Below, one piece after another: positions 8,618-34,442 of a stretch of DNA of 49,896 bases. Position numbers and translations under genes: made by a program. A model generated the notes under the pieces. It searched no databases, was not told where the DNA came from, and saw only the letters and a program-made list of their open reading frames with translations. The DNA comes from Candidatus Aenigmatarchaeota archaeon (GTDB lineage: Archaea; Aenigmatarchaeota; Aenigmatarchaeia; GW2011-AR5), in assembly GCA_018304585.1 (NCBI GenBank), contig JAGVVY010000029.1:1-49896 (forward strand), read 5' to 3'. How positions within the stretch are numbered: the first letter of the stretch is position 1; every line of letters starts with the position of its first letter.

Positions 8618-9247
8618 TCATTTGCTCTTTGACACCCCGTTTTTGGGGCAGATCCCCGCGAGGGCGCACCGCGAGCACAACGGCACCGGCGCCTTGCATA
8701 TTGCCCGCCCGTGCTCTATCAACAGGTACGTCACCTTGTTCCATTCGCTTCGCGGGAACGCTGCCATGAGGTCTTTTTCTATCTTTTCCGGATTTGAGTT
8801 TTCCGTAAAACCCAGGCGAAATGCAAGGCGTTTTACGTGGGTATCGACGGCGATCCCTTCGTTCTTGCCGTAAGCGTTGGACAGCACGATGTTCGCCGTC
8901 TTCCTTGCGACGCCCGGCAGCTCGAGCAGCCCCTCCATCGTATCAGGGACTTTTCCGCCGTGCTTCCCAACGATGATTTTGCAGGCATCTTTTATGTGCT
9001 TTGCCTTCGTTCGGTAAAATCCGGCGCTTTTTACCATGCCTTCCAGGCCCCGTATATCGGCAGAGGCGAAGTCTTTGGCGGTCCTGTATTTCGCGAATAA
9101 CGCAGGCGTGATCCTGTTTACCATCTTGTCGGTGCACTGGGCGGAAAGCATGACCGCAACCAGAAGCTGCAACGGGTTTGCGTGCCGGAGGGCTATTTTC
9201 GCAGAAGGATATAGTTTTCTTAGCTCCTGTATAACTTTACTTTTCAT
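8618..9247 (-). CDS. nth: Endonuclease III (HhH-GPD, 4Fe-4S)
   Basis: LPGVARKTANIVLSNAYG...AVDTHVKRLAFRLGF and C-terminal C-X6-C-X2-C-X5-C cluster (CKAPVPLCSRCALAGIC). Confidence 0.95.
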   Translation of the reverse strand: MKSKVIQELRKLYPSAKIALRHANPLQLLVAVMLSAQCTDKMVNRITPALFAKYRTAKDFASADIRGLEGMVKSAGFYRTKAKHIKDACKIIVGKHGGKVPDTMEGLLELPGVARKTANIVLSNAYGKNEGIAVDTHVKRLAFRLGFTENSNPEKIEKDLMAAFPRSEWNKVTYLLIEHGRAICKAPVPLCSRCALAGICPKNGVSKSK

Positions 9248-9335
9248 GAACCAGTATGCCCTCTTTTTGCCGCCATAATTGAGTATCCGTATTTCCGCCG
9301 GTATAACTTTACTTTCCATGAACCAGTATGCCCTC
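9229..9335. repeat. Unit A: 35-bp direct repeat (9229-9263, 9301-9335; 1 mismatch) around a 37-bp insert
   Basis: gtataactttactttTcatgaaccagtatgccctc / gtataactttactttCcatgaaccagtatgccctc. Confidence 0.9.
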
Positions 9336-11119: not shown

Positions 11120-11390
11120 ATAATAGTTGGCAAATTCTTCTTCACTGATTTTTGCCAGCTTAAGAACGGATTTGAGAGTTCTAGGATCTAGGTAGTACTA
11201 TGTAAGGTTTCTTATCCTGCATTCGTTGGGCGTGGATTTGAGAGTTCTAGGATCTAGGTAGTACCCAACATAAAGAGGTAGCCGACACCGTTTTTCCGCA
11301 AACCGGATGGCTTCCTCTTTGCCGTACGACTTTGAACCCGAATTTATTGCAAAGAATTATAATGCACTCGCTTCCGGAAACCAATTTAAG
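11114..11390 (-). pseudogene. hicA: HicA-like toxin, disrupted
   Basis: Hand translation: LVSGSECIIILCNKFGFKVVRQRGSH ... (other frame) YYLDPRTLKSVLKLAKISEEEFANYYS*; interrupted by repeat unit B and a frameshift, no ATG start. Confidence 0.7.
11168..11264. repeat. Unit B: 31-bp perfect direct repeat (11168-11198, 11234-11264) around a 35-bp insert
   Basis: ggatttgagagttctaggatctaggtagtac twice; insert tatgtaaggtttcttatcctgcattcgttgggcgt. Confidence 0.95.
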
Positions 11391-11598: not shown

Positions 11599-11754
11599 GC
11601 TAATAGATAATCGTTTGTCATTAAAATGCATTACATCCGCTTGTCGCATTATGGCCGAACTTATTTTGCCGCTTGGGGGGGGGGTTCCAATTATCGGGTG
11701 GCTACAAAATCCATGCATATAGTCGCCTATTGAGCATTTTCTTCAGGCTTAAAT

Positions 11755-11794
11755 AATCCTATATATAGGATTAAACAATACTAAAAATAGGATT
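11755..11794. promoter_or_regulatory. Candidate operator: palindrome AATCCTATATATAGGATT (11755-11772) plus half-site aaataggatt (11785-11794)
   Basis: Perfect 18-bp palindrome with an extra half-site just upstream of the HTH-nucleotidyltransferase pseudogene. Confidence 0.5.
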
Positions 11795-17758: not shown

Positions 17759-18589
17759 ATGGGCATTGCATATCTTGGATTCAACGACGCCCTCTCTCCG
17801 CATGCCCAGATGGCCGCGGATGAGGCGATGCTCGTTTGTCAACCCGCGCTGAGATTTTACGGCTACAAAGATACGGCCGTCATTCTCGGGAGAAACCAGC
17901 ACCCGTCTATTGTATCCGATGACGCATATCCTCTGGCAAGAAGAATTACCGGGGGCACGGCAACACTGGAAAAACCTGGCGATGTCCGGTGGGCGTACTC
18001 GTTTCCGAGCGAATCGTCCCTACGGGAAATGAATCGGCATGTTTGCGGGCTCCTGACGCAGTCGCTGCAGAACGCGGGAATTCCAGGCGCATATGCTGAC
18101 CCGGAAACTTCTACCGTCAAGCTGGACGGCAAAATAATCGGGGGGCATGCCAGATGCATAAAGAACGGCATGGCATTTGCGCACGGCATCATAGCGGTTA
18201 CGCCATATTCCCCGCTGCAAGTGGGCCGGGCAATACGCATGAGGCCCGGTGAAGAACAGCTCATGCAAAATATGCCGGATTTGTCTCTGGCCATGGGGGC
18301 GGCGCCCCAAGAGGCCGCTGCAACCATAAGGGCATCAATGCTGGAAACCGTGTCAGGAGGCAGATATGACATGGCCTGTTTAGCCGAACTTATGTCAACT
18401 CCGGAGTATCGTCAAGCCCTTAAAAAGCACGAAAGCCCCGCGTGGATAAAAAACGGCAGCCCGCTTCCTGCACTCCCGGATTCCGATGTGCTTGTAGTTG
18501 ACGAAGATGGCATAACACAGCTCCTCACGAAAACCGGACATTGTTTCTATTCCATGTACAAGGACTCAGAGGTCGCGGCATTGCAGTGA
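17759..18589 (+). CDS. lplA: Lipoate-protein ligase A-like (BPL/LPL fold)
   Basis: ADEAMLV...LGRNQHP...LARRITGGTATLEKPGDVRWAY. Confidence 0.8.
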   Translation: MGIAYLGFNDALSPHAQMAADEAMLVCQPALRFYGYKDTAVILGRNQHPSIVSDDAYPLARRITGGTATLEKPGDVRWAYSFPSESSLREMNRHVCGLLTQSLQNAGIPGAYADPETSTVKLDGKIIGGHARCIKNGMAFAHGIIAVTPYSPLQVGRAIRMRPGEEQLMQNMPDLSLAMGAAPQEAAATIRASMLETVSGGRYDMACLAELMSTPEYRQALKKHESPAWIKNGSPLPALPDSDVLVVDEDGITQLLTKTGHCFYSMYKDSEVAALQ

Positions 18590-18690
18590 GTTTTATAACC
18601 GTTCCATAAGGTAGTATTTTAGCGTTGGTTTTATTCAGAGCTATTTTTTTGTCATTGCAGTGAGTTTTATAACCGTTCCATAAGGTAGTA
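18579..18690. repeat. Unit C: 38-bp perfect direct repeat (18579-18616, 18653-18690) around a 36-bp insert
   Basis: cattgcagtgagttttataaccgttccataaggtagta twice; insert ttttagcgttggttttattcagagctatttttttgt. Confidence 0.95.
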
Positions 18691-18699
18691 AATACAAAT

Positions 18700-18812
18700 G
18701 CCGAGATGGCGGAGCTTGGTCCAACGCGCACGCCTGGAAATTCATGATGCGTCATGAACGAAGAAAGCGTGTGAGCCTTGTGCTCGCGCAGGTTCAAATC
18801 CTGCTCTCGGCG
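18700..18812 (+). tRNA. tRNA-Ser(GGA) with an intron at 37/38 (about 26 nt)
   Basis: GCCGAGA...TCTCGGC acceptor, long variable arm, GCAGGTTCAAATCCTGC T-arm, anticodon loop CTGGAA^intron^A. Confidence 0.9.
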
Positions 18813-34231: not shown

Positions 34232-34442
34232 ATTTCCCGAAGGGAATATAAAAAGAGGCTGCTACTATGGGCTTTGCACGAAAAGTAGCCAATGAACACA
34301 AGATGTTGCGATTTTAGAACGTCAAAATACAACCGGTTGACCGATTTTGGACTTTAGGTGCAAAGCCGCTACTATGCGCCCGTGCCATTATGAAATGAAT
34401 GGCATAAAAATTTCCCGGGGGAATATCAAAAGAGGCTGCTAC
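34232..34442. repeat. Unit E: direct repeat (34232-34265, 34410-34442); inferred insert 37 bp once the nested MITE is removed
   Basis: atttcccgaagggaatataaaaagaggctgctac / atttcccgggggaatatcaaaagaggctgctac. Confidence 0.85.
34270..34367. mobile_element. 98-bp MITE-like element with TIRs and 9-bp TSD
   Basis: TIR GGCTTTGCAC (34270-34279) / GTGCAAAGCC (34358-34367), extendable to 17 bp with 2 mismatches; TSD gctactatg at 34261-34269 and 34368-34376. Confidence 0.85.

Follow-up and report, generated by a model that had tools for sequence, protein, structure and literature searches.

The window, the whole stretch of 49,896 nucleotides analyzed here, is the entire contig C2 of G000, an archaeal metagenome-assembled genome (MAG) of 825 kb in 33 contigs that is 82.5% complete. 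An lplA-like open reading frame (17759-18589, forward strand), whose product carries a lipoate-protein ligase A/B catalytic domain (Pfam PF21948, LplA-B_cat), is followed on the same strand by a gene for tRNA-Ser (18700-18812; Rfam RF00005, 46 bits). By inspection, the anticodon of this tRNA is GGA, and an intron-like insertion after the anticodon loop causes ARAGORN to miss the gene. Between the two genes lies a repeat-insert-repeat element termed unit C. It consists of a 38-bp target copy 1 (18579-18616; CATTGCAGTGAGTTTTATAACCGTTCCATAAGGTAGTA), a 36-nt insert whose first letters are TTTT (18617-18652; TTTTAGCGTTGGTTTTATTCAGAGCTATTTTTTTGT), and a 38-bp target copy 2 (18653-18690), all given for the forward strand. 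The perfect 38-bp duplication at 18579-18690 that had been claimed in an earlier note was confirmed: the copies match at 38 of 38 positions around the insert and their starts are 74 bp apart. Chance is excluded for a perfect pair of this length at such spacing. The duplication had also been said to span the lplA stop codon and a TATA-like element of the tRNA-Ser gene, and indeed the lplA stop codon TGA (18587-18589) is located within copy 1 and the TATA-like element TTTTATAACC (18665-18674, forward strand), a putative promoter element, within copy 2, about 26-35 bp upstream of the tRNA-Ser 5′ end. Judged by sequence, an intact lplA end and an intact TATA-tRNA unit remain, in line with the proposal that one copy closes lplA and the other serves the tRNA; both copies presumably work in vivo.

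According to ribosomal protein L10e, the nearest relatives are Candidatus Aenigmatarchaeota MAGs, one of which, G002 (8 contigs), belongs to the same genus. The order lplA, tRNA-Ser and L10e in G002 matches that of the window, the syntenic lplA ortholog being 47% identical, and the target of unit C is present there only once (...TGCAGTGAGGTTTTTTAACCGTTAACTAAGGTAGAATAAT...) and without an insert. In G001, a third species of the genus, the TATA region likewise occurs once before tRNA-Ser, and the sequence upstream of it differs. The TATA-like element at this tRNA reads TTTTTAACC in G002 and TTTTAACC in G001. The earlier note had proposed to look for single copies in relatives, and these two sites decide between two views of unit C. 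Because the TATA element sits in copy 2, the duplication could be regarded as a conserved promoter architecture that is functional for tRNA-Ser. The single copies in G002 and G001 rule this out as a conserved feature, and since the same anatomy also recurs at unrelated loci, as described below, we hold this explanation to be extremely improbable. The locus is therefore better described as an insertion with target duplication. As the duplication keeps an intact copy for each gene, the event was apparently tolerated, a reading that had been put forward before and that is supported by the single-copy sites.

A scan for direct repeats at all spacings of 20-400 was performed over the whole of G000 and about 714 kb of G002. 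It revealed 13 solitary units in G000, with periods of 65, 66, 66, 66, 66, 67, 68, 72, 73, 73, 73, 74, and 74, and nine in G002, with periods of 66, 67, 71, 73, 73, 74, 74, 75, and 78, and hence the insertions are the product of a repeated process in this genus of the Aenigmatarchaeota. The periods are narrow and fall into groups of 65-68 and 71-75, plus one at 78. Among the 30 repeat pairs with a score of at least 25 and a spacing of 20-400 in 1.5 Mb of both genomes, 18 had a spacing of 65-78; the other pairs, which were not classified singly, mostly resembled repetitive coding sequence or short tandem repeats. The duplication was near 30 bp long in about half of the units and 35-38 bp in about half, including unit C (43 bp in one unit), and the inserts measured 34-40 nt where their bounds were clear. 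Since the gapless scan shortened the repeats of some older units, these bounds are approximate; with one indel allowed, the repeat of unit 7 is about 37 bp long. The repeat sequences of separate units were unrelated to one another. Several units have diverged repeat copies, and one (L064:14378-14542) contains three repeats and two identical inserts. In a fragmented MAG such as G000, with 33 contigs and a completeness of 82.5%, repeats of this kind might be suspected to stem from metagenome assembly or strain mixing, but the units differ in sequence while having common dimensions and gene-edge positions, several of them have diverged copies, and G002 with its 8 contigs has the same kind of unit at other loci. 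An artefact is thus a very improbable explanation.

In about 500 kb of loci from other relatives, one candidate unit (L125) was found besides ordinary CRISPR arrays. No candidate was detected in the 97 kb of G005 that were scanned, and G009, a genome that is 93% complete, contains two in 200 kb (L162:15334-15443 and L163:8776-8874). The repeats of these two candidates are alike and both start with a TATAAT-like sequence, and neither cas1 nor cas2 was detected in G009. In the literature searched, units of this kind were not described for DPANN archaea.

In the empty-site comparison, the insert and one copy were removed from a unit and the joined sequence was aligned to the other species. Nine units of G000 (1, 2, 3, 4, 6, 7, 8, 10, and 13) proved to be single-copy and continuous in G002, and five units of G002 (b, e, f, g, and i) were single-copy in G000. 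These alignments were clean at the boundary for most units and weaker for units 2, 3, and 6 of G000 and unit b of G002. Insertions common to G000 and G002 were not seen. Pre-existing single-copy targets have thus been duplicated on both sides of an insert, and this holds in both directions between the two species. Two further units lie in the window. The first (9226-9335) is composed of copies at 9226-9263 and 9298-9335, which are 95% identical and have a period of 72, and of a 34-nt insert starting with TTTTT (9264-9297); its site is empty in G002, and the start of an endonuclease III-like gene is repeated by it, with the reading frame kept (72 bp). The second (11168-11264) has identical copies (100%) at 11168-11198 and 11234-11264 with a period of 66, and its joined site aligns with a single-copy locus of G002.

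With few exceptions, the units either cover a start or stop codon or occupy intergenic DNA at most about 150 bp from a gene. Selection would produce such a bias toward gene edges if the two neighboring genes are safeguarded by the duplication; a preference of the integrase may also account for it. Unit 13 of G000 is situated at the 3′ end of a gene for a 587-aa protein (L096:5404-7167; L112 in G002). This gene is 99.8% identical between the two species and is probably a mobile element, although it was not classified; the G002 copy is empty.

Three inserts were found to be copied from the organism's own chromosome. The 35-nt insert of the unit at 11168 (unit 3 of G000; insert 11199-11233) is identical at 35 of 35 positions to a sequence inside the rpoB gene of the same genome (G000:C22, L069:1905-1939). 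In G002, the insert of unit i is a copy (37/37) of a gene for an FAD-dependent reductase and that of unit h a copy (33/35) of an orc1/cdc6-like gene, both source genes being named by inspection of their translations. The insert of G002 unit f matched a G000 gene at 21 of 21 positions, and this gene is probably the ortholog of the source. Weak matches to the pyrB gene of G002 were obtained for the insert of G000 unit 4 (L038:8153-8188; 29/36) and that of G002 unit e (L143:13842-13883; 32/42), and pyrB may be considered an unproven candidate source of both. The PyrB proteins of G000 and G002 share only 69% identity. For most other inserts, no source was found in the genomes and viral contigs searched. 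The insert of unit C had no source in 817 kb of its own genome, in the G002 stretches searched for it or in the loci of other relatives. A protospacer search for it, which the earlier note had recommended, also gave no result: none was present in 195 genomes at up to three mismatches, and its 21-mer core had no match in viral contigs, nor did the cores of seven other inserts, in an exact search that would miss diverged protospacers.

The inserts share no sequence and no terminal inverted repeats apart from a TTT/AAA end. A TTT start or an AAA end was present in 11 of 17 well-bounded inserts, compared to 0.85 expected for random pieces of the genome; this pattern was noticed post hoc, and none of 20,000 simulations reached 11. 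None of the 17 showed the reverse pattern, with AAA at the start or TTT at the end. Among canonical CRISPR spacers of G002, only one of 18 started with TTT or ended with AAA. In type V-A systems, Cas4 selects a 5′-TTTN-3′ PAM and stalls at the poly-A complement (PMC13034035), and cleavage by the Cas4-Cas1-Cas2 complex takes place precisely upstream of the PAM (PMC6519985). A PAM-like motif that escaped trimming could account for the TTT end. A PAM is not defined by the flanks of the sources of the three traced inserts, which disagree with one another, and no protospacers from which one might be deduced were found for the canonical spacers of G002.

Errors of DNA repair or replication, in which a staggered break or a template switch copies a short filler and duplicates the flank, can produce a similar picture, and the inserts that are templated copies of chromosomal genes would fit such a process. 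Scattered lengths would then be expected, whereas the observed periods are confined to 65-78 and the inserts measure about 36 nt, like the CRISPR spacers of the genus. As the TTT end common among the inserts argues in the same direction, we regard repair error as an improbable origin of the units.

G002 possesses a complete type I-B CRISPR-Cas locus with Cas6-, Cas8-, Cas7-, Cas5-, and Cas3-like proteins, Cas4, Cas1b, and Cas2, of which Cas6, Cas8, and Cas5 were assigned by position. The array contains about 20 copies of the 30-nt repeat GTTTGAAGAGTACTTTTGTAGTATTGAAAT, separated by spacers of 35-41 nt, which gives a period of 65-71. In the G000 assembly, with its completeness of 82.5%, we found no cas genes, cas1 and cas2 included, and no sequence resembling the I-B repeat at up to eight mismatches. 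The G000 contigs C14 and C12 end at the opposite borders of the G002 I-B island, and the gene for tyrosyl-tRNA synthetase, which is encoded in the same gap of about 17 kb, is also absent from the G000 assembly. The flanks of the island (G002 L088:2854 to L099:5380; G000 L057:1-1843 and L055:13311-16900) are about 99% identical between the two genomes, compared to about 82-89% for most neighboring stretches, which makes a recent exchange of the island between the two species likely. Based on the contig ends, the nearly identical flanks, and the missing synthetase gene, we infer that the G000 organism probably has a near-identical I-B island that was lost in an assembly gap.

Taken together, these data make it likely that unit C arose by CRISPR-style spacer integration outside any array, catalyzed by an integrase of the Cas1-Cas2(-Cas4) type. 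Such an enzyme would join a prespacer of about 36 bp to both edges of the target by staggered strand transfer at positions separated by about 30 or 37 bp, and gap filling would then duplicate the target and give the order target-insert-target. In the case of unit C, the target would have been the point where the lplA stop codon meets the promoter of tRNA-Ser. Among the known enzymes, it is the Cas1-Cas2 integrases that fit a staggered joining of a spacer-length fragment followed by gap filling. The agreement of the insert length (34-40 nt) with that of the canonical spacers (35-41 nt) supports this origin, and the periods (65-78) are close to that of the G002 array (65-71). The type I-B adaptation module of the genus, represented in G002 by cas1b, cas2, and cas4, is presumably the agent. 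Against off-array integration stand the lack of cas1 and cas2 in the G000 assembly, the G009 candidates in a genome without detected cas1 or cas2, and the dissimilarity of the targets to the I-B repeat, since none of the duplicated targets resembled this repeat more than random genomic DNA at p < 0.05.

In vivo, Cas1-Cas2 has been reported to integrate spacers outside the array (Nivala et al. 2018, as cited in PMC11788318 and PMC9456107), and off-target integration has been described for a type V-C Cas1 (PMC13034035). Like the off-array insertions by Cas1-Cas2, the units are solitary, hold an insert of spacer length flanked by direct copies of a chromosomal sequence that was there before, and include self-derived inserts. 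They differ in that about a dozen of them are present in one natural archaeal genome, in targets that lack likeness to the native repeat, in the two duplication lengths, and in a TTT end not shared by canonical spacers. In E. coli, off-array integration reportedly prefers targets resembling the native leader-repeat, although this likeness does not strictly define them. The work of Nivala, Shipman and Church from 2018 on 'neo-CRISPR' events reportedly relied on overexpressing Cas1-Cas2 in E. coli, alongside a few putative natural cases. Units of a canonical CRISPR array can be ruled out, as the unit repeats are unrelated to each other and to the cas-linked array; unlike the G002 array, the units have neither a common repeat nor a leader, and TTT ends are found in 11 of 17 inserts versus one of 18 spacers. 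Insertion sequences, MITEs, and casposons were likewise rejected, because the inserts are unrelated and without terminal inverted repeats. Casposons and other Cas1-family transposons resemble the units in that a staggered, Cas1-like strand transfer duplicates the target, but they have terminal inverted repeats and encode their own Cas1, whereas the inserts of about 36 nt contain neither terminal repeats nor genes.

The duplications near 30 bp, in about half of the units, agree with the 30-nt repeat of the resident I-B system, but those of 35-38 bp do not, and therefore either a looser ruler or a second integrase is needed. The latter is the main rival explanation: another, unrecognized integrase, or a further CRISPR adaptation module whose repeat measures about 37 nt, would make the 35-38-bp duplications including that of unit C, and the I-B module those of about 30 bp. 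The separate groups of periods speak for it, as do the downstream flanks, which read C|CC in several of the roughly 30-bp units and |A in most of the roughly 37-bp units (small numbers), and the candidate units of G009, where cas1 and cas2 are lacking. A broken second cas1 in G002 (L031:1201-1803, G002:C2) also favors it; its C-terminal half is open and stops occur upstream. This gene adjoins a 400-aa open reading frame without NCBIfam match. On the other hand, insert length and TTT end are common to both duplication classes, and the scanned parts of G000 and G002 contain no second cas1-cas2 pair and no array with a 37-nt repeat. We therefore consider a second integrase possible, though unlikely, and the Cas1-Cas2-type agent of the 35-38-bp duplications is a candidate. 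A more far-reaching and rather doubtful idea is that a dedicated or regular write activity pastes fragments of about 36 bp, own genes included, into gene borders chromosome-wide, that the two duplication lengths indicate a pair of integrases of which one is no recognized Cas1, and that some of the pastes could become regulatory or guide elements.

Off-array integration by a Cas1-Cas2-type enzyme, our preferred explanation, would leave most units probably as near-neutral scars ('neo-CRISPR' seeds), because each repeat is unrelated to the others and should not be recognized by a repeat-specific processing enzyme. Alternatively, a unit might act as a functional neo-CRISPR whose insert is transcribed from a neighboring promoter into a guide RNA acting on a target. 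The repeat-spacer-repeat anatomy and the growth of the unit at L064:14378-14542 to three repeats with two identical inserts are in accordance with such a role. A repeat-specific Cas6 would not process units whose repeat differs in every case, and inserts from own genes would target the organism itself. The unit C insert, moreover, is located upstream of the TATA element serving the tRNA, and no target was found for it. A guide function thus appears unlikely from sequence, and we judge the functional reading as a whole to be distinctly improbable. The anatomy, in which a single spacer-like element is flanked by two repeats close to a gene, also recalls the CreTA mini-CRISPR as described in PMC8501985. 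In that account, however, the CreA repeats are degenerate CRISPR repeats, whereas those of the units are plain target duplications. Identity with CreTA was rejected because the unit repeats are unrelated to the resident I-B CRISPR repeat.

While off-array integration itself is known, mainly from experiments that overexpress Cas1-Cas2 and from a few putative natural cases, its natural density, the reciprocal empty sites, the self-derived inserts, and the TTT end are new here. The data suggest that an enzyme that records CRISPR memories has frequently placed fragments, some of them from own genes, outside its proper array. Some dozen insertions that are specific to one species, found in a single natural genome and matched by empty sites in a sister species, would make off-array integration a natural mutational process of DPANN archaea that can be measured. 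If this is true, the process writes self DNA into gene borders and can seed new CRISPR arrays. The TTT end signature may report on PAM processing, and genomes in which no CRISPR array is detectable may preserve, in scars of this kind, traces of earlier adaptation.

Two other repeats of the window are of a different kind. A 24-bp direct repeat (34242-34265 and 34419-34442; 96% identity) has its copies 177 bp apart and falls outside the size class of the units. At 11745-11794, a 22-bp short tandem repeat with 2.3 copies precedes an open reading frame whose product resembles, by eye, a DNA-binding protein.
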